In this document: piece by piece, positions 6,530 to 19,778 of the stretch
Layout of the letters: every line of letters begins with the position of its first letter
Numbering within the stretch: the stretch's first letter is position 1
NCBI RefSeq assembly: GCF_001570365.1
Contig: NZ_BBYK01000055.1
Location: forward strand, 98,932 to 162,931
Source of the DNA: Microtetraspora fusca
Lineage (GTDB): Bacteria > Actinomycetota > Actinomycetes > Streptosporangiales > Streptosporangiaceae
Length of the DNA: 64,000 nucleotides
Reading direction: 5' to 3'
Made by a program: the position numbers and the translations under genes
The notes under the pieces: model-generated
Told to the model about the DNA's origin: nothing
The model's input: only the letters and a program-made list of their open reading frames with translations
Database searches by the model: none

Positions 6530-7651
6530 GTGCGGGATGAGGTAAAATCCGGCCAATCGGCCGGAACACCGTTGACATCCCTCTACCGGGGGATGCGCCT
6601 GTTCACCGTCGCCTTTCTTCTGCTCGTCGTCACGCTCTGGCCCGATTTCGCCGCCGAGAATCCCGGCCTGTCACGATGTCTCGCCGCAGGATGTGGCCTG
6701 GTCGCCTTCGGCGCGTCCTACGTCCGCGTGGTGGTCCGCTCGATACCGCGTTCCGGACGGATCCACGTTCCGTGGGCGATGTCAATCCATATCATCAGCG
6801 GATTCGCACTGCTCGCCGTACTACCGCAGAATTGGATTTACTACCTGCCGTTTTATGTTCTGACCTGCATTGTTATCACGCAGGGACCGTACGCGGCGTT
6901 GCTGTCCGCCGCGGGGTTGGTGCTCGTCATGGTGTTCGTCGGGTTCACCCGGGGGCTGCCCCCGTCCCGGCTCGGCATGCTGGCGATCCAGCTCGGCGTC
7001 TTCACCCTCACTCTGACCGGGATCCACCGGGTGGCCGACTTCGCCGGCGCCCAGTGGGAGACCCGGAAGCTCTCCGAGCGCCTGGCGACCGAGCGCGAGC
7101 GCCGGCGCCTCTCCCGGGACCTGCACGACCTGGTCGGACGCGATCTGGTCGCGCTCGCCATGCACGCGGAACTGGTCGCGCGCAGCGACTCCGGGCGCGG
7201 GGCGGAGGAGGAGCTGCGCCAGATCGCCGCGCTCGCCCGTACGACCCTGGACAACACGCGGGCGGTCGTGGAGGAGATGCGCGAGCCGGACGTCCTGGCC
7301 GAGCTGGACGAGGCCCGCGAACTGCTGACGTGGGCGGGCATCGAGCTGTCCGTGTCCGGCGACCCCGCCGAGGCGCACCGGCAAGCGCCGTTCGCCTGGT
7401 TCTTACGGGAGGCCGTCACCAACGTGGTCAAGCACAGCGGCGCGCGGAACTGCCGGGTGATCTTCGGACCCGATCGCGTGACCGTGGAGGACGACGGACG
7501 GCCCGAGCGGCCGGTGGTGCCGGGCGCCGGGCTCACCGGACTGCGGGAACGGCTGGAGCAGGCCGACGCCGAACTCCTGCTCGAACGCTCCCATGACGGC
7601 CTTCTCCGCATCACCGCACGACTCGCAAAGGGAGGGCCCGCCCATGTCTGA
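6530..7651 (+). CDS. sensor histidine kinase (HisKA_3 type)
   Basis: A 373-aa membrane sensor kinase. About five hydrophobic segments (residues 20-170) form the sensor, a short coiled linker (about 175-195) leads to the HisKA_3 dimerisation helix with phospho-accepting His199 in SRDLHDL, and a HATPase domain follows with N-box NVVKHSG (from Asn298) and the GAGLTGLRERL G-box. The annotated GTG at 6530 lacks a clear ribosome binding site; ATG 6593 after CCGGGGG is an alternative. It overlaps the response-regulator gene by 8 bases. Located directly upstream of a RiPP precursor, it probably senses a signal controlling that cluster (inference). Confidence 0.88.
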   Translation: MRDEVKSGQSAGTPLTSLYRGMRLFTVAFLLLVVTLWPDFAAENPGLSRCLAAGCGLVAFGASYVRVVVRSIPRSGRIHVPWAMSIHIISGFALLAVLPQNWIYYLPFYVLTCIVITQGPYAALLSAAGLVLVMVFVGFTRGLPPSRLGMLAIQLGVFTLTLTGIHRVADFAGAQWETRKLSERLATERERRRLSRDLHDLVGRDLVALAMHAELVARSDSGRGAEEELRQIAALARTTLDNTRAVVEEMREPDVLAELDEARELLTWAGIELSVSGDPAEAHRQAPFAWFLREAVTNVVKHSGARNCRVIFGPDRVTVEDDGRPERPVVPGAGLTGLRERLEQADAELLLERSHDGLLRITARLAKGGPAHV

Positions 7652-8285
7652 GCCGCCGCTGAGCGTCCTCATCGCGGAGGACCAGAGCCTGATCCGGAAC
7701 GCCCTGAAGGAACTCCTTTCGGGATATCCGGGGCTGGAGGTCGTGGGCACCGCGGGCACCGTCGAGGAGGCCGTCTCGGTGGGCTCCGCGGTCCGCCCGC
7801 ATGTCGCGCTGGTGGATCTGCAGATGCCGCCCGCTCCCGGAGGGGAGGAGCGGCCGTCGAGCGGGGTCGAGGTGGTCGCGGCGCTGCGCCGCCGGTCGCC
7901 GGCGACGAGGTGCCTGATCCTCTCGGCGTTCCGCGAGCCCCGCGCGCTGCGCGCCGCGCTGGCCGCGGGCGCCTGCGGCTACCTCGTCAAGGACACCTCG
8001 CCGACCGAACTGGTCGCCGCGATCCGGCAGGTGGCCACCGGCGAACCCGTGATCGACGACAAGTTGGCCGCCCGCATCGCGCTGGCCGCGCCGTGCCCGC
8101 TCACTCCGCAGGAGGTGGCGGTCCTGCGGCACGCGCGTGACTTCCTCACCGTCGCCGACATCGCCCGGACCATGCGTCTCAGCACCGGCACGGTGCGCAA
8201 CTATCTCACCCGCGCCATCCGCAAGACCGGCGCGCGCAACCGCCACGAGGCCGTGCGGATCGCCGCGTCCCACGACTGGCTGTGA
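7644..8285 (+). CDS. LuxR/NarL-family response regulator
   Basis: A 213-aa response regulator. The receiver domain shows the acidic pair E12-D13, phospho-acceptor Asp58 (VDLQMP) and Lys116 (VKDTSP). A LuxR-type HTH covers about residues 150-213 (LTPQEVAVL through NRHEAVRIA). I choose ATG 7644, preceded by AAAGGGAGGG, rather than an upstream in-frame start inside the kinase gene. It is the cognate partner of the overlapping kinase gene. Direct repeats upstream of the RiPP precursor gene are candidate binding sites. Confidence 0.9.
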   Translation: MSEPPLSVLIAEDQSLIRNALKELLSGYPGLEVVGTAGTVEEAVSVGSAVRPHVALVDLQMPPAPGGEERPSSGVEVVAALRRRSPATRCLILSAFREPRALRAALAAGACGYLVKDTSPTELVAAIRQVATGEPVIDDKLAARIALAAPCPLTPQEVAVLRHARDFLTVADIARTMRLSTGTVRNYLTRAIRKTGARNRHEAVRIAASHDWL

Positions 8286-8701
8286 CGGGGGAACCCGGCC
8301 CGCCGCGCTGACGGACCACCCCGGCCGGGGACGCTCCGGCCATGCCGCGCATGCTCCCGCGGAGCGGGCGGCGGTGTCGGCGGTGTCCCATGTCATCTCC
8401 GTCAGGCCCTCCAGCGGTGCGCCACGGACGTGATCAGCCGTCACCGCCGCACACTACGGCCGGCCCCCGGGCCGCGAACAGATCCTCTTTCTCATCATTG
8501 AACGGTGATTTTTGTCACCGTCATTTCACCCGGATTCGCATCATTGACGGAATTCGGACCTGTGCTGATGATCGGTGCGTCCGGTCCAGAAAAGACGGAG
8601 CCTTTCGGGACTCGAGCGCGGACCCCGGGCCCGACATGAATCCGCACCTCGATTCCCGGCGGCGTTCCGCCGGCATCCGCGGAAGGGAGGGTGAATTCGG
8701 C
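8286..8701 (+). promoter_or_regulatory. 416-base regulatory region upstream of the RiPP precursor
   Basis: No gene is visible. The centre (about 8480-8560) is clearly more AT-rich than the surroundings. It holds a perfect inverted repeat ACGGTGA-N6-TCACCGT (8502-8521) and two direct repeats, CATCATTGAACGG (8493-8505) and CATCATTGACGG (8539-8550), 46 bases apart. These are plausible sites for the upstream response regulator or another factor. Confidence 0.45.
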
Positions 8702-8863
8702 ATGAAGCTTGAGAGCACTGCGACGGTTGACCACCGCAGCATGACTGCTCAGCCGCTTGGGGCCGGCCTGTCCGGCGCCGGTTTCGGCGTCGTCGTTCCC
8801 GGCGCGTCGTCGTGCTGCGCGGGCTGCACGTCCAGTTCGTGCGGCACCATCGTGCGGCCGTAG
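8702..8863 (+). CDS. putative azole-containing RiPP (LAP/TOMM) precursor peptide
   Basis: A 53-aa peptide at ATG 8702, downstream of GGAAGGGAGG. Residues 1-36 look like a leader, rich in Gly, Ala and Val with a short polar start (MKLESTATVDHRS). The last 18 residues are the likely core, with four Cys, five Ser and two Thr (SSCCAGCTSSSCG then TIVRP), just the residues a YcaO/E1 cyclodehydratase turns into thiazol(in)es and oxazol(in)es. All modification genes follow on the same strand. I do not recognise the peptide as a known family. The leader is unusually poor in acidic residues. The leader/core boundary is a guess. Confidence 0.75.
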   Translation: MKLESTATVDHRSMTAQPLGAGLSGAGFGVVVPGASSCCAGCTSSSCGTIVRP

Positions 8864-8879
8864 AGATGAAAGCGGTGCC

Positions 8880-8910
8880 CGGGGAGCCTCGGCCTCCGGG
8901 CTCCGCCCCC
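8880..8910 (+). terminator. possible attenuating hairpin after the precursor gene
   Basis: GGAGCC (8883-8888) pairs with GGCTCC (8899-8904), and flanking G and C runs extend the stem imperfectly. A leaky hairpin between a RiPP precursor and its enzymes is a common way to give excess precursor transcript. Weak evidence. Confidence 0.35.
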
Positions 8911-8948
8911 ACCATGGCCACTTAACGACAGAAAACGCGGTGTCAGGC

Positions 8949-9527
8949 ATGGAAATCAAATCGGAAATCGACGTCTCCGCCATTCCGAAGCCCGTTCTCA
9001 TCAACGTTCCCGTGGACGACATGGAACGCGGCCTGGAATTTTATCAGGCGTTTCTCGGAATGCCGGCGGCGCGTTCACTCTCGTACGAGATCTCCTATCA
9101 CGCCCCGGTGTCGAGCGACGGAATCCTGCTCACGGTGAACAAACGCAGGTTCCCCGGCGAGACGGTGACCGTCTATTTCCACGTCTACGACCTCGACGGC
9201 GTCCTGAAGAAGATCGTCGAGCTGGGCGGCGAGGTGACGGCCGGGCCGTACGACCTGCCGCTGCCCAAGCAGATCAAGCCGGAGTTCCAGGAGCAGTTCC
9301 GCGACAGCCCGTTCTACCGGGGCGACGCGGGCGACTCGATGGGGCTCGGCGCCAGCGTGGCCGACGCCGACGGCAACCGGTTCGGGTTGGTGCAGTTCAG
9401 CGAATGGGCCCACGCGACCTTCCGGCTCGGCCGATACGCGAACCCGGTCACCCCCGAGCAGCTCGTCGACCAGTCGATCGCGCTGAACCGGAACGTGCCC
9501 CCGCCCACCGAGATCTTCCAGGAGTGA
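8949..9527 (+). CDS. VOC (glyoxalase/bleomycin-resistance fold) family protein
   Basis: A 192-aa protein with the vicinal oxygen chelate fold: a beta-alpha-beta-beta-beta module near the N terminus (PVLINVPVDDMERGLEFYQAF) and a second module ending in the typical ADADGNRFGLVQ strand (about residues 138-150), with a long loop rich in Phe and Tyr between them. VOC proteins act as metal-dependent isomerases or dioxygenases, or bind and sequester antibiotics. Sitting between the precursor and the SagB-like dehydrogenase, it may modify the peptide or give self-protection (inference). Its role in an azole RiPP cluster is not established. Confidence 0.8.
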   Translation: MEIKSEIDVSAIPKPVLINVPVDDMERGLEFYQAFLGMPAARSLSYEISYHAPVSSDGILLTVNKRRFPGETVTVYFHVYDLDGVLKKIVELGGEVTAGPYDLPLPKQIKPEFQEQFRDSPFYRGDAGDSMGLGASVADADGNRFGLVQFSEWAHATFRLGRYANPVTPEQLVDQSIALNRNVPPPTEIFQE

Positions 9528-9535
9528 GCGCGCCC

Positions 9536-10456
9536 ATGGACCACGTCACCGATCCCCAGCTGGCCGAGGCGAGCGCCGGGGTCAGCGCGTACCGGTCGCT
9601 CAGCCCCGACCTCTCCGCGGTCGGGCTGCGCACCAACCAGGCCCGGTACGACAACCTGGGCGAGGCGCGGTTCCCCCGGCCCGCCGAGGAGTTCCTCGTC
9701 GCCAGCCGCTTCGCCCCTTGGGATCGCGAGGCCCAGCTCTCCGGCTCCGACTACTTCGGGGACGTGATGGCGACCGCGCTGTCCGTGGTCGACCAGGAGA
9801 CGCCGCCCGCCGCCGACACCGTCGAGCTGCCGCCGCCGCTGGAGGTGCCGATCGCGCTGGACGAGGCGGTCGCCCGCAGGCGGAGCGTACGCAGGTACAC
9901 CGGCGACCCGGTCGCCCTGGCCGAGATGGGCACGATGCTCCGCTTCGGCGCGGGCGTCACCGGCGAGGCCGACGCCGAGCTGATGCGCGGCGGCGCGGTC
10001 ACGTACCGGTTCCGGGCCGTCCCGAGTGGCGGCGGGCTCTACCCGGTCGAGGTCCACGTCGCCGCCCTGGACGTCCCCGAGCTGTCCGTGGGCACCTACC
10101 GCTACAGCCCCGTGGAGGACGTGCTCGTCCGCACCGGCGACCGGGCCACCGTGGACCGGCTGCGCGACGCGTTCGCGATCCCCGGCGGGATCATCTCCCT
10201 CGAGAGCGCGGCCTTCGTCGTCCTCCTCGTGGCCCGGCCGTGGCGGTCCATGCGCAAGTACGGCCCGCGCGGGATGCGCTTCGTCCTGCACGAATGCGGC
10301 GGGATCGCGCAGAACATGCACCTGACCGCCACGGGTTTCGGCCTGGGGACGACCGACTGCTCCAGCTACGTGGACGACCTGGCCAACGAGGCGCTCGGGC
10401 TGGACGGCGTGCTCGCCTTCCTGGCCCACACGATCGTGGTCGGATGGCCGGGATGA
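9536..10456 (+). CDS. SagB-type FMN-dependent azoline dehydrogenase
   Basis: A 306-aa nitroreductase-superfamily protein of the SagB/ThcOx type. The N-terminal third is the family's accessory region; the FMN-binding nitroreductase core starts near residue 105 with the RRRSVRRYTG motif and continues through PSGGGLYPVEVH. SagB enzymes oxidise azolines to azoles in LAP and thiopeptide pathways. I start at ATG 9536; a GTG at 9524 overlapping the VOC stop (GTGA) is a possible alternative. Its stop overlaps the radical SAM start (ATGA). The presence of a dehydrogenase implies a product with aromatic azoles. Confidence 0.88.
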   Translation: MDHVTDPQLAEASAGVSAYRSLSPDLSAVGLRTNQARYDNLGEARFPRPAEEFLVASRFAPWDREAQLSGSDYFGDVMATALSVVDQETPPAADTVELPPPLEVPIALDEAVARRRSVRRYTGDPVALAEMGTMLRFGAGVTGEADAELMRGGAVTYRFRAVPSGGGLYPVEVHVAALDVPELSVGTYRYSPVEDVLVRTGDRATVDRLRDAFAIPGGIISLESAAFVVLLVARPWRSMRKYGPRGMRFVLHECGGIAQNMHLTATGFGLGTTDCSSYVDDLANEALGLDGVLAFLAHTIVVGWPG

Positions 10457-11676
10457 GCGAGACCCGGCCGCTGCTGCTCTACGTGCACATCCCGTTCTGC
10501 CGGTCCAAGTGCCACTTCTGCGACTGGGTCACCGAGATCCCCACCGCCGAGCTGCTGCTGCGTCCCGCCGACTCCCCCCGGCGGGCCTACATCGCCGCGC
10601 TCTGCCGGGAGATCAGGGAGCGGGGCGCGGAGCTGACGGCGCGGGGATACCGCCCGGCCATCATGTACTGGGGCGGCGGCACCGCCAGCATCCTCGCCGA
10701 ACACGAGATCGCCCAGATCGGCGCGGCGCTGCACGACGTGTTCGACCTCTCCTCCGATCTGGAGGAGGCGACCATCGAGTGCAGCCCGGAGAGCCTCACC
10801 GCGGCCAAGCTGGCCGCCTTCCGCGAGGTGGGTTTCCTCCGCTGGAGCAGCGGCGTGCAGTCCTTCGACGACCGCCGGCTGCGCCGGCTGGGCCGCAGCC
10901 ACGACGCGGAGGAGGCCCGCCGCGCCGTTCACCTCGCCGCCGAGGCCGGCTTCGAGGACAGGTCGATCGATCTGATCTGCGGCCTTCCGGGAGAGGACCT
11001 CGACGAGGTCGCCGCGTCGGTGCGCACCGCCGTCGGGCTGCCCGTGACGCACATCGCGCTGTACCCGTACCGGCCGGCGCACGGCACGGTGCTGCGCCGG
11101 CAGGTGACCCGCGGCACCACCGCGATGCTGCGCTCCGAGCAGAAGGAGGCGTACGCGCTCGGCGCCTCGCTGCTGGTGGACGCCGGGTTCCCCGAGTACG
11201 CGATGAGCCATTTCGGCGACCAGCGGTGCCTCAGCGACCTCGCCTACTTCCAGCTCCGCATGGACTGGGCCGGGTTCGGCTCCGGCGCGACCTCGCTGAT
11301 CGGCGGCGAGTACCTCGCCCACCGGCGTGGCTTCCTCGCCGCCTACAACCGCGATCCGCTGAGTTTCGACGAGCGGTATCCCGCCGCCTCCCCGGCCATC
11401 GCGTCCCGGCTGCTCTACCAGTCGCTCACCACCTTCGAGGGCGCCTCGCGGGAGCTCTGGCGGGAACGCACCGGGGTCGAGCTGGACGAGGTGCTGGCCC
11501 TGGGGCCCTGCCGCCACCTGCTCGGCTTCCTGGAGCGGGTGGCCGAGGTGTGCTCGGACGAGGAGGGCGTCCGGCTGCGCCGCGACCAGATCGCCGGCGC
11601 CTTCATCGACCTGCAGTTCGCGGGCATCGCCGCCGCGGCCGGCGCCGAGTCCCGGGCCGCGGCGCTCCTGGGCTGA
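10453..11676 (+). CDS. HemN/HemW-like radical SAM protein in the RiPP cluster
   Basis: A 407-aa radical SAM enzyme. The [4Fe-4S] motif CxxxCxxC is at Cys16, Cys20 and Cys23 (HIPFCRSKCHFCDW), followed by the SAM-binding GGGT (about 76-79) and a C-terminal HemN-like domain. HemN-like proteins inside azole RiPP clusters are typically class C radical SAM methyltransferases acting on aromatic rings or thiazoles, so C-methylation of an azole is a reasonable guess; coproporphyrinogen oxidase activity is unlikely here. The start overlaps the SagB-like gene by four bases. An in-frame ATG at 10444 is an alternative. Confidence 0.82.
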   Translation: MSETRPLLLYVHIPFCRSKCHFCDWVTEIPTAELLLRPADSPRRAYIAALCREIRERGAELTARGYRPAIMYWGGGTASILAEHEIAQIGAALHDVFDLSSDLEEATIECSPESLTAAKLAAFREVGFLRWSSGVQSFDDRRLRRLGRSHDAEEARRAVHLAAEAGFEDRSIDLICGLPGEDLDEVAASVRTAVGLPVTHIALYPYRPAHGTVLRRQVTRGTTAMLRSEQKEAYALGASLLVDAGFPEYAMSHFGDQRCLSDLAYFQLRMDWAGFGSGATSLIGGEYLAHRRGFLAAYNRDPLSFDERYPAASPAIASRLLYQSLTTFEGASRELWRERTGVELDEVLALGPCRHLLGFLERVAEVCSDEEGVRLRRDQIAGAFIDLQFAGIAAAAGAESRAAALLG

Positions 11677-11767
11677 CGGCGTCCGGCGGCGCGGAGCGCC
11701 CCAGGTCTCAGGCAGGTACCAGGCAGGTCCCCGGCCAGGTAAGGCCAGTAAGGAAGGAATGGCACCC

Positions 11768-12793
11768 ATGCAACAGAGCAAGAACGTGCGGATCAAACCG
11801 TCCTTCAGCGTTGTCGCCCACGACGCGGACACCGTCGAGCTCCGCCACGGGGTCTGGAACGTCCGCTCGTACACCCTGACGGATCACGCCCGCACGGGCC
11901 GCCTGTACGGCCTGCTCCGCGGGCTCGACGGCACCACGAGCCGGGCCGAGGTGGCCAAGGCCAACGGCGTCACCCGGGCCGAGGTCGAGGCGCTGGTGGA
12001 CCACCTCGACCAGCTCGGCGTGATCGCCCGCGCTCCCGAAACCGCCTTGGACGCCTACATCGAGAGCACCGGCGGCTATGTCGCGGAATCGCCCGCTCCC
12101 CCAGTCGTCGTCCTGGGCGGGGGCGCGCTGGCCACCGCGACCGCCCGCGTTCTCGAGGCCAGCGCGCCCGGCGGCGTGGAGCTGGCCGAGGAGAGCGAGC
12201 CGCTGCACCATGCCCTGCTTGAGGCCGATCCGGTGGCCCTGGAGGACGGGCTGGCCTTCGAACGGTTCGTCGAGCGGTTCGAGCCGTGGCGGGGCAAACT
12301 CCTGGTCCACGTGGCCGAGGAGCCGCATCCCCTGCGACTCTCGACGCTCAACCGGATCGCCCTGGCGCTGCGCACGCCATGGATCCAGGCCGCCGTGGAC
12401 GGCCCGATGGTGCTGATCGGCCCGTCGTTCTCGCCTCCGACCTCGGCCTGCTTCGCCTGCTTCGAGACGCGGGTGCTGATGAACCTCCGCGAGTCGGCCG
12501 CGTACCAGCGGTACAAGGACGCCCTGGTCCGCCAGACGATCCGCGTCGGCGAGCCGCCCACCCTGGACGCGCTGCGCGCCCTGGTCGCCGGGCACGTGGG
12601 ACTGGAGGCGCTCAACCTCGCGCTGACCGGCACCACGACCACCCTCGGCAAGGTGCTCGGGATCTACGTGCCGACCATGGAGATCTCCTACTCCGAGGTG
12701 CTGCGGCTCCCGGGCTGCCGGGCCTGCGGGCCGGTGGTCGAGCGTGAGGCCACCGAACTGTACTTCGACGTGCGGCGGTGGATCGATGCCTGA
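11768..12793 (+). CDS. E1-like (ThiF/SagC-type) cyclodehydratase partner with leader-binding domain
   Basis: A 341-aa TOMM E1-like protein. The N-terminal about 85 residues form a winged-helix RiPP recognition element, which grips the precursor leader; then comes a degenerate Rossmann part (VVVLGGGALATATA) and zinc-binding Cys pairs at 228/231 (CFAC) and 317/320 (CRAC). These proteins present the precursor to the YcaO enzyme and have no catalytic activity of their own. ATG 11768 is preferred over 11759, because AAGGAAGG then lies at normal spacing. The gene overlaps the YcaO gene by 8 bases. Confidence 0.88.
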   Translation: MQQSKNVRIKPSFSVVAHDADTVELRHGVWNVRSYTLTDHARTGRLYGLLRGLDGTTSRAEVAKANGVTRAEVEALVDHLDQLGVIARAPETALDAYIESTGGYVAESPAPPVVVLGGGALATATARVLEASAPGGVELAEESEPLHHALLEADPVALEDGLAFERFVERFEPWRGKLLVHVAEEPHPLRLSTLNRIALALRTPWIQAAVDGPMVLIGPSFSPPTSACFACFETRVLMNLRESAAYQRYKDALVRQTIRVGEPPTLDALRALVAGHVGLEALNLALTGTTTTLGKVLGIYVPTMEISYSEVLRLPGCRACGPVVEREATELYFDVRRWIDA

Positions 12794-14132
12794 GCTGCTG
12801 GCCCCGCGCCTCCTGGAGTCGCCCGACCAGTTCACCGCGCGGCTGCGGGCGCGGATGCACTCCCCGCTGTGCGGGCTCATGCCGTCCATGGGCTTCCTGC
12901 AGCGCCAGCGGGGCGGCCCCCGGCTGATGGTGGCCGGCGGCGAGCTGACCGGGGTGCACGTGCTGCGCGGCCTGCCCGCGCCCAAGATCGGCGCGTACCA
13001 CATCGGCGGGTACGGGCTGCGCCCCTTCGAGTCGCACATCAGGACGCTCGGCGAGGTGGTGGAGCGGTACGGCGGCTACCTGGCCCCGGTGAGCGGGCGC
13101 TTCCCCATCCGGTACGCGTCGGTCGAGGAGCTGACCGCCGCCGGGGAGCTCTGCGACGCCGGCCCGGTCGCGCCGTACAGCGCCGAGCAGTACGCCCGCG
13201 AGGGGTTCCCGTTCCGGCCACGGGAGGACGGCCACCGGCTGGGCTGGGTGCGCGCCACCCGGCTCTCCGACGGCCGGGACTGCTGGGTGCCGGCGCAGCT
13301 CCTGCTGGTCGGGTACGTCGTCCAGGACCGGATGGGCGAGCCGTGGCTCGCGCCCGCGGTCTCCACCGGCACCGCGGCCCACACCGACCCGGACCGGGCC
13401 GCGCTCAACGCGCTGGAGGAGATGGTGCAGATCGACGCCGCCATCTGCCACTGGCACGGAGCGAGCAGGTCGACGCGGATCGGCGCGGGGGCCAGGACGG
13501 CCGCGCTCCAGCGCGTGGTCGAGTCCTCCTTCGACCCGCGGGGCGACCGGCCCGAGTTCCACCTGCTGCCGAGCGCCGACCTGCCGGGGTTCACCGTCGC
13601 CTGCCTCATCCGCAGCGCGGACGGCCGGCTGCCCGCCGTCGCCGTGGGGCTCGGCATCGACGGCGTGCTGGAGCGGGCGATGTACCGGGCACTGCTGGAG
13701 GCGGCCGGCGTGCGCGCGCTGGCCGTGTGGACCGCCCTACGGCAGCGGTTCGAGGACGCGTCCGCGACCCCCGAGGACATGTTCGACCTGGAGTCCAACG
13801 TCTCGTTCGCCGCGCTGCCGGAGGGCGCGCGGGTCGTCGAGGCCAGGTTCGCCGAGTGCGACGACGCCTCGGCCGACGACCTGCCACCTGACGACGAGCG
13901 GCCGCCCGGCGTCCGCACACGCGAGCTCGTCCGGGCGTTCCACCGGACCGGCAAGCGCCTGTACGCGGCCGACTTCACCACCGTGGACGTGGCCGACCTG
14001 GGCTTCGTCGTGGCCAGGTTCTGGTGTCCCGATCTTGTGACGCTGCCGCTGCCCGGCGCCCCGGCGGCGGCGCACCAGCGGTTCGCCGCGTACGGAGGGT
14101 TCCGCCGCCATGATCCCCACCCCTATCCCTGA
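12786..14132 (+). CDS. YcaO-family azoline-forming cyclodehydratase
   Basis: A 448-aa YcaO protein. It uses ATP to activate backbone amides so that Cys, Ser or Thr side chains cyclise to azolines. The characteristic ESHIRTLGEVVERY-type ATP/Mg2+ helix is seen near residues 80-95, and ALNALEEMVQIDA near 205-220. The protein ends in PHPYP, a PxPxP C terminus, which in the family marks azoline-forming cyclodehydratases as opposed to other YcaO types. It is separate from, and overlaps, its E1-like partner. The CPBP protease gene begins 23 bases before its stop. Confidence 0.92.
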   Translation: MPELLAPRLLESPDQFTARLRARMHSPLCGLMPSMGFLQRQRGGPRLMVAGGELTGVHVLRGLPAPKIGAYHIGGYGLRPFESHIRTLGEVVERYGGYLAPVSGRFPIRYASVEELTAAGELCDAGPVAPYSAEQYAREGFPFRPREDGHRLGWVRATRLSDGRDCWVPAQLLLVGYVVQDRMGEPWLAPAVSTGTAAHTDPDRAALNALEEMVQIDAAICHWHGASRSTRIGAGARTAALQRVVESSFDPRGDRPEFHLLPSADLPGFTVACLIRSADGRLPAVAVGLGIDGVLERAMYRALLEAAGVRALAVWTALRQRFEDASATPEDMFDLESNVSFAALPEGARVVEARFAECDDASADDLPPDDERPPGVRTRELVRAFHRTGKRLYAADFTTVDVADLGFVVARFWCPDLVTLPLPGAPAAAHQRFAAYGGFRRHDPHPYP

Positions 14133-14931
14133 CACGCGGGCGTACGCTCTGACGGCGCTCGCGCTGCTCTCCCTGTCCTGCCTGACGCTCGCGGCCCACC
14201 TGCACACCCGGTGGGCCTGGGTGCGACGGCTGCCGCTGCTCGCGGTGCACGTGCTGCTCATGAGCGCGCTCGTCCTCGCGGGCGCGGCGCTGCTCGGCCC
14301 GATGGCGCTGCTCCAGCCGGTGCCGGAGCATCCGGCGGGCTGGTGGGGGCTGCCCTCGGGAGCCCTGGTGGGCTTCGCGCTCGGCCTGTTGATCATCCGG
14401 GTGGACCGGGCGATCACCACGTCCTGGCGGCGGTCATCCACGCCACCTGCGCGGCCCCAGCCGCCGCGGATGACCGCCGCCCGCCCCGCCGGCTTCGCCG
14501 CCTCCGGCACCGGCCTCTCCGAGCGCCGCCGTACCGGCCTGGTCCGGGCCCGCAACGACTACGCGCCGACCAGGAGCGACCTGCAGGTCCGGCTGGAGCT
14601 GCTGGTCGCCGTGGCCGTGGGCGAGGAACTGGTCTTCCGCGGCCTGCTGACCCGGCTCGCCCTGCTGCTCGCGGACGGCCCGCTCGTGGTCGCCGGGCTC
14701 GCCGTCGCGGCGGCGGTCTTCGCCTGCTCCCACGTCTTCTTCGGCTGGGTCCAGGTGCTGGCCAAGATCCCGCTGGCGGTCGCGGCCTGCGCGGCCACGC
14801 TGCTCACCGGGAACGTCCTGGCGGCGATCGTCTGCCACGTCGTGTTCAACGTCTGGGTGTGGCGCTACCGGCGCAGCGAGCCGGTAGCCCGGCGCGTGCC
14901 CGCCCGCGGGATGTGGGGGGCGACGGCATGA
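14110..14931 (+). CDS. CPBP intramembrane glutamic protease (SagE-like), intact motifs
   Basis: A 273-aa multi-pass membrane protein of the CAAX/bacteriocin-processing (CPBP, ABI) family. All three motifs are present: EELVFRG (Glu172, Glu173, Arg177), FACSH (His208) and HVVFN (His243, Asn247), so an active glutamic protease is expected. In SagE-like roles it removes the leader or gives immunity. ATG 14110 follows GGAGG inside the end of the YcaO gene. The cluster encodes no dedicated peptidase other than the two CPBP proteins. Confidence 0.85.
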   Translation: MIPTPIPDTRAYALTALALLSLSCLTLAAHLHTRWAWVRRLPLLAVHVLLMSALVLAGAALLGPMALLQPVPEHPAGWWGLPSGALVGFALGLLIIRVDRAITTSWRRSSTPPARPQPPRMTAARPAGFAASGTGLSERRRTGLVRARNDYAPTRSDLQVRLELLVAVAVGEELVFRGLLTRLALLLADGPLVVAGLAVAAAVFACSHVFFGWVQVLAKIPLAVAACAATLLTGNVLAAIVCHVVFNVWVWRYRRSEPVARRVPARGMWGATA

Positions 14932-15734
14932 GCGCGCTGCCCTGGCCGCTGCGCGCCCTGACGCTGGCCGCCCTGGTGATCCTCTACTACAAGTACGCCA
15001 AGGCGGCCCTGTTCGCCGCCTGCCGCCGGGTCGCCCACCTGCTCCCCTTCGCCCGCCGCTGGGACGCCAGCGAGCGCGGCAGCGTGCTGGAACTCGCGGC
15101 GGCGGGGGCCAGCCACGTCCTCGTCGTCGTGCTTCTCGTCCTGGTCACCGGTGTCGACCTCACCGGGCTCGTCCTCGGCCTGAACCGGCCCGACCTGATC
15201 GCGCTCGGAGTCGCGGTCGGCGTCGGGGAGGTGGCACTCGGCTCGCTGCTGTGCCGGGTGCTGATCGAGGGCGTGCAGGCGATGGGCCGACGGCGGTCCG
15301 GGGCCGAGAACGTCCCGTCCGGCGCGCAGCCGGCGGCCGCGGCGAGCGCCGTCGCGAGCGGGGAACGGACGCGGCAGTGGCTCGGCCTCTCACGTGGCGG
15401 CTGGATCCGGCACCACCTCAAGACGATGGAGGTCATCTCCCTTCCCCTCGCCATCACGCTCACCGCCGTACAGGTGGGCAGCGAGGAGGTCGTCTTCCGC
15501 GGGCTGGTGCTGACCTGGCTGCGCGACGCCGGGCCGGTCCTGGCGATCGGGATCTCCTGCCTGCTGTTCACCGTCATGCAGATCTTCCTGATGTCCTCGT
15601 GGCGGGCCGCGATGTTCCCCGTCGTCGGCGCGATCGTGATGGGCCTCACCCACGGTGTCCTGTTCTGGCACTACCCCCTGCTGCTCCCCCTGGTGGTGGC
15701 GCACGTCACCTTCTTCCTGTTCGCGGTGGCCTAG
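14928..15734 (+). CDS. second CPBP-family membrane protein with altered active-site motifs
   Basis: A 268-aa multi-pass membrane protein starting at an ATGA overlap with the preceding CPBP gene. It keeps the first motif EEVVFRG (Glu186, Glu187, Arg191), but the second-motif His is Gln218 (FTVMQ) and the usual HxxxN reads HVTFF (His259 with Phe263). Two of the expected residues are therefore replaced. It may be inactive as a protease, act as partner of the first CPBP protein, or serve in immunity (inference). Confidence 0.8.
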   Translation: MSALPWPLRALTLAALVILYYKYAKAALFAACRRVAHLLPFARRWDASERGSVLELAAAGASHVLVVVLLVLVTGVDLTGLVLGLNRPDLIALGVAVGVGEVALGSLLCRVLIEGVQAMGRRRSGAENVPSGAQPAAAASAVASGERTRQWLGLSRGGWIRHHLKTMEVISLPLAITLTAVQVGSEEVVFRGLVLTWLRDAGPVLAIGISCLLFTVMQIFLMSSWRAAMFPVVGAIVMGLTHGVLFWHYPLLLPLVVAHVTFFLFAVA

Positions 15735-15762
15735 AAGGCCGCCCGCGGAGAAAGGCACCCAC

Positions 15763-16830
15763 ATGTTTCATGGCCTGTCCCTGCTCCCGGACTGTTCACC
15801 CGGGACGAAGGCGCCCGACGACTATTTCCGGGACGTGCTGCTGCTCAGCCGCCTCGCCGACCAGGGCGGGATGAGCCACGTCAAGATGACCGAGCACTAC
15901 CTCGGCGCTTATGGCGGCTACTGCCCGAGCCCGCTGGCCTTCCTGTCCGCCGTGGCCGCCGTGACCACCCGGATCCGGCTGATGACGGGATGCGTGCTGC
16001 CGGTCTTCCACCATCCCGTTCAGCTCGCGTCCGAGGCCGCCATGGTGGACGCGATCAGCGGGGGGAGGCTCGACGTCGGCTTCGCCCGCGCGTACCTGCC
16101 GCAGGAGTTCGAGACGTTCCAGGTGCCGCTGGACGGCAGCAGGGAGCGGTTCACCGCGACCGTGGACGCGGTGCTGCGGCTGTGGACGGAGGAGCGGGTC
16201 AGCGTCGACACGCCGTTCTTCCGGTTCCGCGACGTGACGATCCTGCCCCGGCCGGTGCAGCGCCCGCGCCCGCCCGTCTGGATCGCGGCGGTGCGCTCGC
16301 GCTCCAGCTTCGCCTGGATCGGCGAGCAGGGGCACAACCTGCTCGTCACCCCCGCCCTCACCCCGCTCAGCGAGATGAGCGACCACATCGCCGTCTACCG
16401 CGAGGCGTACGCCGAGGCGGGGCACGCGCGGCCGTCCCAGGTCGTGGCCAGCCTGCCGCTGTACGTCGGGGACTCCGACGAGGAGGCGCGGCGGACCGCC
16501 GACCCGCTGCTGCGCGGCTACCTCGACGTGTGGGCCGCCGCCACCGACCCGTGGGTCTCGGTCACCTCGGACGACTACCGCGGCTACACCGGGATGAGCC
16601 GGGCCATCCGGGCGCTGGACCCGGCGTCGTTCCGGACCATGGGCAGCGCGATCGTCGGAGCCCCGGCCACCGTCGCGGAGCGGATCCAGGAGGTCGCCGC
16701 GACGCTCGGAGCCGACGGGTTCCTCTGGCAGATGGACTTCGGAGCCGTCGCCGGGGACGTGGCCGTGGCGAGCCTCGAACGGTTCCTGGACAAGGTGCTG
16801 CCGAGCCTGCCCGCCGGCAGATCGCGCTGA
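15763..16830 (+). CDS. LLM-class flavin-dependent oxidoreductase
   Basis: A 355-aa luciferase-like (TIM-barrel) flavin monooxygenase, of normal length. The family segments AAVTTRIRLMTGCVLPVFHHP (about 65-86) and SGGRLDVGFARAY (about 98-110) are clear. ATG 15763 follows GGAGAAAGG. Encoded within the RiPP operon, it could hydroxylate or otherwise oxidise the peptide using FMNH2 or F420H2; the exact chemistry is unknown. A housekeeping role is possible, but the gene position argues for a tailoring function. Confidence 0.82.
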   Translation: MFHGLSLLPDCSPGTKAPDDYFRDVLLLSRLADQGGMSHVKMTEHYLGAYGGYCPSPLAFLSAVAAVTTRIRLMTGCVLPVFHHPVQLASEAAMVDAISGGRLDVGFARAYLPQEFETFQVPLDGSRERFTATVDAVLRLWTEERVSVDTPFFRFRDVTILPRPVQRPRPPVWIAAVRSRSSFAWIGEQGHNLLVTPALTPLSEMSDHIAVYREAYAEAGHARPSQVVASLPLYVGDSDEEARRTADPLLRGYLDVWAAATDPWVSVTSDDYRGYTGMSRAIRALDPASFRTMGSAIVGAPATVAERIQEVAATLGADGFLWQMDFGAVAGDVAVASLERFLDKVLPSLPAGRSR

Positions 16831-16840
16831 GGAGGCGTCG

Positions 16841-17878
16841 ATGACCGCGAACCGACTCTCGCGTTTCCTGGCGGCGGCCGTGGGCGGGCTGGCGCTCCTG
16901 CTCGCCGCCGTCCTGCCCGCGCCGGCCGGCGCCGCGACGCCGGCCGGGTGCCGCCTGGTCTCCGTCCCGGTGACCGTGGCCGCCCATCAGGTCACCCTCA
17001 GGGGGACCTTGTGCCGGCCGTCCGGTGCGGCCGTGGACACGGTCCAGCTCCTGGTCTCCGGCGTGACCTTCGACCAGACGTACTGGTTCACTCCGGGCGA
17101 CCCGAGCGGCCGGCCGTACGCCCGGCACATGACCGACGCCGGATACGCCGTGCTCGCCCTGGACCGGCCGGGCAGCGGGCTGAGCGACCGCCCGCCGGCG
17201 CCGGACGTCACCCTCGACACCGAGGTCGAGGCGATCCACCAGGTGCTCGGCCGGCTGCGGGACGGCACGCTGGGCGGCCACGCGTACCGGCGGGTGATCG
17301 GCGTCGGGCACTCGTTCGGCGCGGGCGCGCTGGTCGCCGAAGCCGCCCGGCACGGCGACCTGGACGCGGTGGTGGCGACCGGCTTCGTCCACTCGGTCGG
17401 CCCCAGGCTGGACGAGCTCAACCAGGCGATCGTGCCCGCCGCCGACGACCCCGTGCTGCGGCTGACCCGGCCGCCGGCCGGTTATCTCACCACGAAGGCG
17501 GGCACCCGGGCCGGGCTGTTCCTCGACGCGTCCGGCAGCTCTCCCCTGATGCGGTCGGCCATCGAGCTGACGAAGACGACGATGACGACCGGCGAGCAGT
17601 CCACGCTCGCCGACGCGGGCGATCCCGCCATCTCCGGCGCCGTACGCGTGCCGGTGTTCCTGGCGGTCGGGGAGCACGACGACCTGTTCTGCAACGGCCC
17701 GTACCTCCAGTGCACCGACGCCGCCGCGGTGAAGACGTGGGAGAGCTGGTTCTACGCGCCCGAGACCGGGCCGGAGACGTACGTGCTCAGCGGCGCGGGA
17801 CACGCGCTCAACCTGCACCGCAACGCCCCGGAGCTGTACGCGGCGATCATCCGCTGGCTGGGCGGCCTGGCCGGATAG
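16841..17878 (+). CDS. secreted alpha/beta hydrolase
   Basis: A 345-aa protein with a Sec signal peptide (residues 1-32, LAAAVGGLALLLAAVLPAPAGAA) and an alpha/beta-hydrolase fold. The nucleophile elbow GHSFGAG has Ser158; an acid in GEHDDLF and His in GAGHALNL complete a plausible triad. Several Cys residues near the termini could form disulfides outside the cell. It starts 10 bases after the LLM gene and is the last gene before a strong terminator, so it belongs to the operon. It may process or detoxify the product outside the cell; this is inference. Confidence 0.85.
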   Translation: MTANRLSRFLAAAVGGLALLLAAVLPAPAGAATPAGCRLVSVPVTVAAHQVTLRGTLCRPSGAAVDTVQLLVSGVTFDQTYWFTPGDPSGRPYARHMTDAGYAVLALDRPGSGLSDRPPAPDVTLDTEVEAIHQVLGRLRDGTLGGHAYRRVIGVGHSFGAGALVAEAARHGDLDAVVATGFVHSVGPRLDELNQAIVPAADDPVLRLTRPPAGYLTTKAGTRAGLFLDASGSSPLMRSAIELTKTTMTTGEQSTLADAGDPAISGAVRVPVFLAVGEHDDLFCNGPYLQCTDAAAVKTWESWFYAPETGPETYVLSGAGHALNLHRNAPELYAAIIRWLGGLAG

Positions 17879-17945: not shown

Positions 17946-17985
17946 GCCCGCTCAGGACGCCATCGGCGTCGGACGCGGGCGGCCG

Positions 17986-18111
17986 GGGCGCAAAGGCCGC
18001 GGGCGCAAAGGCCGCGGGCGCTCGGGGTTACGGGCGCTCGGGGTTACGGGCGCTCGGGGTTACGGGCGCTCGGGGTTACGGGCGCTCGGGGTTACGGGCG
18101 CTCGGGGTTAC
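17986..18111. repeat. compound minisatellite: 2 x 15 bp then 6 x 16 bp
   Basis: Two perfect copies of GGGCGCAAAGGCCGC (17986-18015) run straight into six perfect copies of GGGCGCTCGGGGTTAC (18016-18111). Both unit types begin GGGCGC. The array lies between the RiPP operon terminator and the end of the convergent methyltransferase gene. No spacer structure, so not CRISPR. Confidence 0.95.
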
Positions 18112-18148
18112 GGGCGGCAGGAGACGGGGCCGTCGGGGTTGCGAGCGG

Positions 18149-18874
18149 TCAGGGGCGCCGGGCAGCGACCATCGACGTCCGCGCGTGGGGGCCGCCGTAC
18201 CAGAACCGCCAGCCCAGGTCGTAGACCTCGACGTCCGCGGCACCGCACTCGCGCAGCACGGCGGCGTAGTCGCGGGCGTTCCGGAAGTCCGCCAGCCGGA
18301 GCCTGCCCCCGGGCTTGACCACCCGGAACGCCTCGCGGATCGCCGCCGCGCGCCCCTCGGCGTCGGGGATGTTGTGGACGGCCAGGCTGGACACCACCAG
18401 ATCGAACGTCCTGTCCTTGAACGGCAGGTGGCGCATGTCGTCGGTGACCAGTTCGACCCGGTCGGCGACCTTCTCGGCGCGGGCGTTGCCCCACGCGGCG
18501 TCCTGGCTGTTGCCCGACTGGTCGCGGGTCCACAGGTCGAGGCCGACGGCCTTCCCCCGGGGCACCCGCGCCGCCGCCTTGAAGAGGACGAGGCCACGGC
18601 CGCAGCCCAGGTCGAGGACGCGTTCGTCACCCTTGAGCCCCAGCCGGTCCAGCTCGGCGTCCCAGACCCGGAACTTCCCTCGGAGCGTGGTGTGCGCGAA
18701 CAGCGCCGCGCCCACGACCAGCATGACGCCGCCGAGCAGGAGCACCACCGCCGGGATCGGCCAGCCGATCCCGAAGAACACGGCGGCGACGGCCAGCTCC
18801 GCGACCCCGCCCGCGGCCAGACCGGCCAGCACCCCTGGAGCGTCCACACCATAGTTCGCACGGAGATCCACCAC
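18149..18874 (-). CDS. membrane-anchored class I SAM-dependent methyltransferase
   Basis: A 241-aa protein with two N-terminal hydrophobic segments (about residues 14-60) and then a Methyltransf_11/25-type domain. Motif I VLDLGCGRG is near 87-95, and the post-I acid is in VGLDLW. The fold covers about residues 75-240. The start is GTG 18874 (the second GTG just after it cannot be excluded). The membrane tether suggests a hydrophobic or lipid-like substrate. It is convergent with the RiPP operon and followed by the minisatellite, so not obviously part of the cluster. Confidence 0.78.
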   Translation of the reverse strand: MVDLRANYGVDAPGVLAGLAAGGVAELAVAAVFFGIGWPIPAVVLLLGGVMLVVGAALFAHTTLRGKFRVWDAELDRLGLKGDERVLDLGCGRGLVLFKAAARVPRGKAVGLDLWTRDQSGNSQDAAWGNARAEKVADRVELVTDDMRHLPFKDRTFDLVVSSLAVHNIPDAEGRAAAIREAFRVVKPGGRLRLADFRNARDYAAVLRECGAADVEVYDLGWRFWYGGPHARTSMVAARRP

Positions 18875-19292: not shown

Positions 19293-19778
19293 TCAGGAGG
19301 CTACGCTCACCCGCGCGGCGCCCTCTTCGGCGTCCTCCCTCGGGCCCTCTCCCTGGCCGTCCGCCCCGGCGCCGTCCGCCTCCGCGGCGGTCTCCGCGTC
19401 CTGGGCGGAGTCGGCCGCGGTCGCGTCCGCGTCGGGGTGCACCGCGATGAACTGCTCGATGATCTCGTCGGGGACCTTGCCCCGGACCGGGACCTCGATG
19501 CCCTGCTCCCGGGCCCATTCCCGGACGTCGGTGGCGGTGTAGCCGCGCAGCCGGGGCGAGACGTCGGTCGCCGCCTTCTTCGACCGGGACGCCTGCTTCA
19601 CCTCGCGGGAGTTCTCCAGGACCGTCTCGATGAACGCGAGCGCCTCGCCGAGCCGCTGCTGGTTGGCCTCCGACAGGTCGATGGCGAAGGTCCGGTTCAG
19701 CAGCGGGAACTCCCGTCTCGCCACGTCTTCGCCCTCGGAGTGGTCGAGGTCGTCAACCAGAATCACCTTCTGCGCCAC
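19293..19778 (-). CDS. lsr2: Lsr2 nucleoid-associated protein
   Basis: A 161-aa Lsr2 homologue that bridges AT-rich DNA and silences foreign genes. The N-terminal dimerisation domain (MAQKVILVDDLD start) covers about residues 1-60. The C-terminal DNA-binding domain holds VREWAREQGIEVPVRGKVPDEIIEQF (split across about 86-112), including the RGK-type AT-hook-like loop VRGKV. A roughly 45-residue acidic Ala/Asp/Glu tail makes it longer than typical Lsr2 (about 110 aa). Start is GTG 19778 after AAAGGG. Confidence 0.92.
   Translation of the reverse strand: MAQKVILVDDLDHSEGEDVARREFPLLNRTFAIDLSEANQQRLGEALAFIETVLENSREVKQASRSKKAATDVSPRLRGYTATDVREWAREQGIEVPVRGKVPDEIIEQFIAVHPDADATAADSAQDAETAAEADGAGADGQGEGPREDAEEGAARVSVAS

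Follow-up and report, generated by a model that had tools for sequence, protein, structure and literature searches.

The question addressed herein is what kind of peptide would be produced by ten clustered genes at positions 8702-17878 of a 64,000-nucleotide stretch of Microtetraspora fusca DNA (contig NZ_BBYK01000055.1; the whole stretch is hereafter called the window). A sequence-only reading had proposed an azole-bearing ribosomally synthesized and post-translationally modified peptide (RiPP), and our analysis indicated that the locus is very probably a cluster for a linear azol(in)e-containing peptide (LAP), whose product would best be read as a thiazole-C-methylated, flavin-oxygenated linear azole peptide. 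The machinery is known and its combination is new; the surprising part is that the clade of its luciferase-like monooxygenase (LLM) is shared with other azole RiPPs. No description of this cluster was found in the literature searched, most subscription papers lying outside it.

Precursor and azole-forming enzymes

The ten open reading frames (ORFs) of the cluster are all open and lie on the plus strand in the order and at the positions given by the sequence-only reading, and Pfam and NCBIfam searches confirmed the proposed families for nine of the ten proteins, the precursor being the exception. The description of the genes as mostly overlapping was too strong, as four of the nine junctions overlap and the other five are gaps of 8-85 bp. 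The matches to TIGR03603, TIGR03604, TIGR04020 and the HemN-type NCBIfam models were below the models' own cut-offs. Neighbourhood ORFs were taken from a gene caller based on third-codon-position GC content, and their start positions are rough.

Among 341 genomes of the host family, 13 gave YcaO matches at E<=1e-40, and six of these, the window's own included, hold the cluster; the window genome, of 9.0 Mb in 108 contigs, has a single YcaO match. In a second family, 6 of 249 genomes gave matches at the same threshold, including G199 (YcaO 66%), in which the cluster is kept without the hydrolase, and a class-wide draw at E<=1e-20 gave matches in 4 of 296 genomes, the window's own included. The 22 plasmid records with YcaO matches all stayed below 60% identity, the 15 listed having 22-27%. 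The gene order is kept in six loci besides the window copy (together subfamily A), with no hydrolase match in L022, while the contig of L007 ends just upstream of the VOC gene, before the precursor. Identities among the family loci were 84-91% for the VOC, SagB, radical SAM, E1, YcaO and LLM proteins and 67-84% for the CPBP proteins and the hydrolase. Five further loci of the second family (L041-L045) form subfamily B.

The precursor (8702..8863, 53 aa) has counterparts at the corresponding position of five loci other than the window's. Against four close relatives it showed 8-21 synonymous and 1-4 nonsynonymous differences, with ratios of nonsynonymous to synonymous substitution rates (dN/dS) of 0.02-0.13, and against the more distant L022 the ratio was 0.21; in each pairwise comparison it was below that of the other genes tested. 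These values indicate that the precursor is a real gene and the most constrained one of the cluster. Since it is under strong purifying selection and six other loci share the gene order, the clustering is beyond chance. The string PGASSCCAGCTSSSCG is identical and ASSCCAGCTSSSCG invariant in all six precursors, the leaders follow the pattern M-K-L/I-x-S/N...HR[SN]xxxQ, and only the tail varies slightly (TIVRP, TIARP, AVVRPTA). The core, most likely ASSCCAGCTSSSCGTIVRP after VVVPG, has many Ser and Cys residues including SSSC and no acidic residue, hence no Glu, and it hardly differs between genera or between the two families in which it occurs. The precursor had been called unrecognised, and indeed neither Pfam nor NCBIfam gave a match to it at E<=0.01. 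Its core string was in none of the papers searched, where the five core strings sought led to no azole-peptide description and one of them occurred in a single unrelated paper. The locus would thus represent an azole-peptide family for which no description was found in that literature, and Microbispora catharanthi, Sphaerimonospora mesophila and Sphaerisporangium melleum are the strains to culture.

The E1, YcaO and SagB set, from which azole formation had been proposed, was recovered with its families and motifs, supporting an azole RiPP at the sequence level. The SagB-like azoline dehydrogenase (9536..10456; TIGR03605, 5.3e-30), whose solved relatives include McbC, keeps the Lys-Tyr motif as KYG in all seven loci, and the E1-like (SagC/TOMM C-type) leader-binding partner (11759..12793; TIGR03882, 2.2e-15, above the cut-off, with MusD and TruD matches) keeps two CxxC motifs in the same seven. 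The YcaO cyclodehydratase (12786..14132; PF02624, 6.5e-36; TIGR03604 below cut-off) gave no PDB match at E<=0.001; its PxPxP C-terminus reads PHPYP in 11 of the 12 loci of both subfamilies and PHPFP in L022. Two Rce1-type CPBP membrane proteins had been noted and both are present by family match, but only one of them keeps all protease motifs: CPBP1 (14110..14931) has EExxxR, FxxxH and HxxxN in 12/12 loci of both subfamilies, whereas CPBP2 (14928..15734) has lost two catalytic motifs, with FxxxQ and HxxxF in 7/7 subfamily A loci. In the proposed pathway, the E1-like protein would bind the leader, YcaO with ATP would cyclodehydrate the Cys and probably some Ser/Thr residues of ASSCCAGCTSSSCGTIVRP, the SagB-like enzyme would oxidise the azolines to azoles, and CPBP1, the putative leader protease, would cleave the precursor near VVVPG|A at the membrane to release its leader.

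As in known LAP systems, a precursor, an E1-like partner, YcaO, SagB and a CPBP protease occur here together with no macrocyclising enzyme, a CPBP protease being a LAP trait seen with streptolysin S and plantazolicin; every sequence feature of LAP membership that was tested was found. The cluster differs from these systems in adding a NocN-like radical S-adenosylmethionine (SAM) enzyme, a VOC protein and an LLM. Searches whose controls worked gave no LanB-, TbtD- or F-protein-like match in the window, in the other six loci of subfamily A or in the five of subfamily B. The absence of a lantibiotic-type dehydratase and a pyridine synthase noted by the sequence-only reading extends to the relatives. 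Its view that this is not a standard thiopeptide cluster, for which LanB and TbtD-like genes would be expected, is supported at the sequence level.

Radical SAM enzyme, monooxygenase and VOC protein

The radical SAM enzyme (10453..11676; PF04055, 3.4e-20) is HemN-like in sequence, keeps CX3CX2C and most SAM-binding residues, and matched NocN (PDB 9p2u) at E=1.3e-110, with 192 of 382 aligned residues (50%) identical. At the NocN positions first examined, 14 of 17 residues were identical, including the three cluster Cys, Tyr34, Tyr96, Arg153, Asp196 and the thiazole-stacking Arg230; Ser225 is replaced by Ala and Tyr276 by His in 7/7 loci, and Ile302, a backbone contact, by Thr in the window. Four further residues comprised the conserved Tyr227, Tyr287 and Phe288 and the replaced Phe283 (Leu). 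Twelve positions were compared in all seven loci. This comparison places the enzyme with methylases of the class C, NocN-like kind; of the C-methylating role proposed earlier, the methylase type is supported at the sequence level. PMC12871812 links ring closure by NosN/NocN to Tyr276 together with a substrate glutamate, and reports methylated products from an analogue lacking that carboxylate. In contrast to that system, the core here offers no Glu for ring closure and the ten genes include no indolic-acid gene. Because the core lacks acidic residues, plain methylation would be expected: the enzyme would methylate an sp2 carbon of a ring, a thiazole being the most likely one. It would then represent a class C radical SAM enzyme with a probable thiazole substrate and no indole involved.

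The LLM (15763..16830; PF00296, 1.4e-58) is a putative tailoring oxygenase dependent on flavin mononucleotide (FMN). Its best NCBIfam model was TIGR04020 with 150 bits, and TIGR03564 gave 45 bits, both below cut-off. The best solved relative was RslO1 (PDB 7bip, E=8e-69), described in PMC8093152 as an FMN-dependent luciferase-like monooxygenase of rishirilide biosynthesis. RslO1 acts on a polyketide and is thought to work with the flavin reductase RslO2, whereas the ten genes include no flavin reductase. Of the oxidation by a flavin enzyme proposed earlier, the enzyme family stands; the LLM, probably with reduced FMN, would oxygenate the azole peptide.

In the second family, 54 of 287 genomes had a relative of the LLM at E<=1e-60. 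Leaving G199 aside, full-length matches of at least 54% identity (54-60%) numbered 23. Eighteen neighbourhoods of 18 kb were examined, 15 of them from these 23, the other eight of which were seen with 1.5-kb flanks. All 15 hold azole-RiPP-like genes: nine carry a TbtD-like pyridine synthase and LanB, four of them also having YcaO in range; five carry LanB-like, F-protein-like, YcaO and KedN5-like B12 radical SAM genes; and one carries LanB and YcaO. LanB- or F-protein-like neighbours were also present in all eight loci seen with short flanks, so that LanB-, pyridine-synthase- or F-protein-like neighbours adjoin 23/23 full-length relatives of at least 54% identity. NCBIfam cut-offs were not reached by the TbtD (97 and 117 bits), F-protein or B12-enzyme matches, and LanB is above the Pfam cut-off in L091 and assigned by similarity elsewhere. 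A partial LLM match in G765 had 68% identity over 149 residues. No azole-RiPP-like genes were found in the 18-kb neighbourhoods of L098-L100 (LLM 46-50% identity) or in the 3.5-kb stretch of L082 (53%). The combination of VOC, LLM and secreted hydrolase had been thought unfamiliar among azole RiPPs; as regards the LLM, this view does not hold, its nearest outside relatives lying in thiopeptide-like or LanB/YcaO loci. The loci L086-L097 and L101-L103 hold a LanB-like and mostly a pyridine-synthase- or F-protein-like gene, unlike subfamily A.

Precursor-like ORFs at the LLM-relative loci end in CCSSSSSTCCC, SSCCCCCPCCSCT and similar strings. L087, L089 and L091 appeared thiopeptide-like, and each has at least three precursor-like ORFs that resemble one another and end in CCSSSSS(A)TCCC. 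L090, L093, L094, L095 and L103, the loci with LanB-like, F-protein-like, YcaO and KedN5-like genes, have two precursor-like ORFs each, ending in SSCCCCCPCCSCT, and possibly make polythiazole products.

In an unrooted LLM tree of the 37 rows passing the filter, subfamily A fell on one side with the thiopeptide-like and LanB/F-protein kinds, and subfamily B on the other with three unplaced rows (100/99); the thiopeptide-like rows by themselves formed one side only weakly (67/82). We tentatively consider it possible that a dedicated LLM clade carries out one and the same oxygenation of polyazole peptides, common to thiopeptide-like, LanB/F-protein and LAP clusters, and that in the window it is joined by radical methylation of the class C kind on a linear azole peptide. 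The reaction of this flavin monooxygenase clade, which several kinds of azole RiPP share, can be tested in a small cluster.

The VOC-fold protein (8949..9527; PF00903, 5.7e-5) is specific to subfamily A, with matches at E<=1e-12 only in the six cluster-bearing genomes of the 341. Judging by eye from the alignment, what we take to be the usual first metal-binding His seems absent; a binding protein of the bleomycin-resistance type perhaps fits better than an enzyme, and the protein would most likely bind the product or protect the producer. The alpha/beta hydrolase (16841..17878; PF12697, 2.5e-12; GHSFG) has an N-terminus read by eye as a secretion signal, is present in 6/7 loci and would be accessory.

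Subfamily B shares part of this equipment. Its SagB (43-47%), E1 (45-47%), YcaO (49-52%) and LLM (51-52%) proteins resemble those of the window, CPBP1 is present, and a degenerate CPBP2-like protein with QE as its first motif lies between CPBP1 and the LLM in 5/5 loci. In a search restricted to these five loci, the leader resembled that of the window (39-48% identity, with E from 2e-6 to 2e-4); it is followed by cores of the form TCCCSAAIVR(ES) or TSCCSAAV(T/ASK)R. No VOC, radical SAM or hydrolase match was obtained there at E<=1e-3; a divergent P450-like gene and a TetR-like gene occur in 5/5 and an O-methyltransferase-like gene in three, the names being read from the sequence. The SagB-E1-YcaO-CPBP-LLM set may predate the addition of VOC and the radical SAM enzyme, and loss in subfamily B would be equally possible, the LLM tree also leaving room for LLM exchange. 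In more distant SagB-E1-YcaO loci (L027-L033; YcaO 32-44%), no VOC, radical SAM or CPBP match was found at E<=1e-4, and one partial LLM match occurred (L027). L027, L028 and L029 carry a short ORF of another kind upstream of SagB, with APITSSSSSAA or APLSTTTIA near its C-terminus, possibly an oxazole-type LAP family.

Block boundaries, exporter and alternative readings

A histidine kinase gene (HisKA_3; 6530..7651, plus strand; PF07730; 63-70% in four relatives) and a NarL/LuxR-type response regulator gene (7644..8285, plus strand; PF00072, PF00196; 74-79% in four relatives) precede the precursor and would regulate the cluster. The longest regulator ORF is 7593-8285, and comparison with relatives makes the start at 7644 likelier. 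In the Microbispora-like G141, in which YcaO found no match, about 100 bp separate the two flanks of the M. catharanthi cluster (L034 1-1882 and 15133-17379). In G368, a sister genome of the window's genus, the block is lost and a kinase fragment (window 6845-7158) adjoins the right flank from 18146 on; no match to the window was found left of that fragment. Because of the empty site in G141 and the fragment in G368, the kinase, the regulator, the ATP-binding cassette (ABC) exporter where present, and the genes from precursor to hydrolase are indicated to be gained or lost as one block. The ten genes delimited by the sequence-only reading stand, but the unit is larger, with the regulatory pair inside it.

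The lack of an ABC transporter noted by the sequence-only reading applies to the window and L024 and is no trait of the family; four relatives carry the exporter, Microbispora catharanthi and Sphaerisporangium melleum among them. In L025, L026 and L034, a permease and an ATPase gene in divergent orientation occupy the space between regulator and precursor; in L022 the pair also precedes the precursor. A possible, weak remnant of an ATPase gene start was seen in the window at 8380..8412 on the minus strand (33 bp, 82%, E=0.01 to L025), and that spot also matched L024 over 34 bp; E values for resemblance to the ATPase start in the window and L024 were 0.01 and 0.002.

Several points weigh against a thiazole-C-methylated, flavin-oxygenated linear azole peptide as the product. 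This reading is drawn from sequence, all of its chemical steps being inferred. Since Tyr276 and Phe283, both substrate-side residues in NocN, are changed, substrate and outcome may differ from those of NocN. The subfamily B LLM is not the nearest relative of the window LLM, and the chemistry may therefore differ between the subfamilies. The predicted structure of the VOC protein was a poor model (mean pLDDT 49). As the window copy lacks the exporter, another export route or inactivity is possible; outside the cluster, the window genome's best match to the L034 permease was at 34%, in a search that did not cover the ATPase. Finally, two LanB-type ORFs lie on another contig of the window genome (G000, C75:36309-40477), and dehydration in trans is possible.

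The oxime of azolemycin is made by a flavin monooxygenase, and the window LLM might similarly N-hydroxylate the freed N-terminal amine of an azolemycin-like LAP to an oxime, which we regard as fairly unlikely. Azolemycin is a LAP with an N-terminal oxime and C-terminal O-methylation (PMC7136475). Consistent with such a role, the LLM is kept in both subfamilies, which are alike around the PG|[AT] junction. However, the nearest LLM relatives include the nine loci with TbtD-like pyridine synthases, and finished thiopeptides are not known to keep a free N-terminus on the core. Given that the LLM is common to thiopeptide-like and LAP loci, it would more likely act on an azole, the backbone or a C-terminal site than on a free N-terminus. 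The azolemycin core, presumably VVSTCTI, is not in the window precursor by direct reading, and a DNA pattern for this core found nothing in 394 genomes.

That the cluster is decaying or silent in the window strain, its exporter gone and nothing made, is distinctly unlikely. The ABC pair is indeed reduced to a short remnant at most, and the loss in G368 with its leftover kinase fragment would agree with decay; yet every gene still present is open and under constraint, with dN/dS of 0.13-0.51 in comparison with the five closest relatives and of 0.02-0.13 for the precursor, and L024, also without the pair, is otherwise complete.

Quite improbable is the possibility that the LLM is a LanJC-type reductase converting dehydroalanine to D-Ala, with a LanB encoded elsewhere in the genome supplying the dehydration. 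LLM-family LanJC enzymes are proposed for this step in lanthipeptides (PMC7268733), relatives of the window LLM adjoin LanB-like genes, and the two LanB ORFs on contig C75 are at hand. In contrast, the luciferase-like reductases of daptides are listed under TIGR03564 and PF00296 in PMC10036551, whereas the window LLM scores 45 bits with TIGR03564 against 150 with the monooxygenase model TIGR04020. Its best solved relative, RslO1, is moreover described as a monooxygenase, and no LanB match was obtained in the window or in its relatives of both subfamilies.

A thiopeptide completed by a pyridine synthase and a dehydratase from elsewhere is scarcely credible, for although the NocN-like enzyme, the thiopeptide-associated kind of LLM, the many Ser and Cys residues of the core, SSSC included, and the LanB ORFs on another contig would fit it, TbtD-, LanB- and F-protein-like matches are missing from the window and all 11 related loci (the rest of the genome was not searched for TbtD), and the one YcaO of the genome stands beside a SagC-type partner in a cluster with the CPBP trait of LAPs. 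As a separate observation, the LanB pair on contig C75 perhaps belongs to a lanthipeptide-type cluster of its own.

Features to the right of the cluster

The perfect 17-bp hairpin previously noted at the cluster end is present (17908-17924/17929-17945) and may be a terminator, with no T-run after its 3' arm. It was seen only here, no perfect hairpin with arms of at least 9 bp being found in the short stretches (37-185 nt) downstream in six relatives.

The SAM methyltransferase gene at 18149-18874 (minus strand), whose product has a hydrophobic N-terminal part, is the right neighbour in six family loci and was considered as a cluster member. It was rejected, since it occurs in the cluster-free genomes G368 (89%), G369 (83%), G141 (81%) and G016 (77%), and at the G141 empty site it lies outside the block. 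In G369 (L053) and G016 (L055) the methyltransferase was seen with no clear empty site. An Lsr2-type nucleoid protein gene (19293-19778, minus strand), 1.4 kb right of the cluster, is kept in the cluster-free G368. Between the hydrolase and the convergent methyltransferase gene lies a perfect 16-bp tandem repeat of 6.4 copies (18015-18116), adjoined by a 15-bp repeat at 17981-18021.

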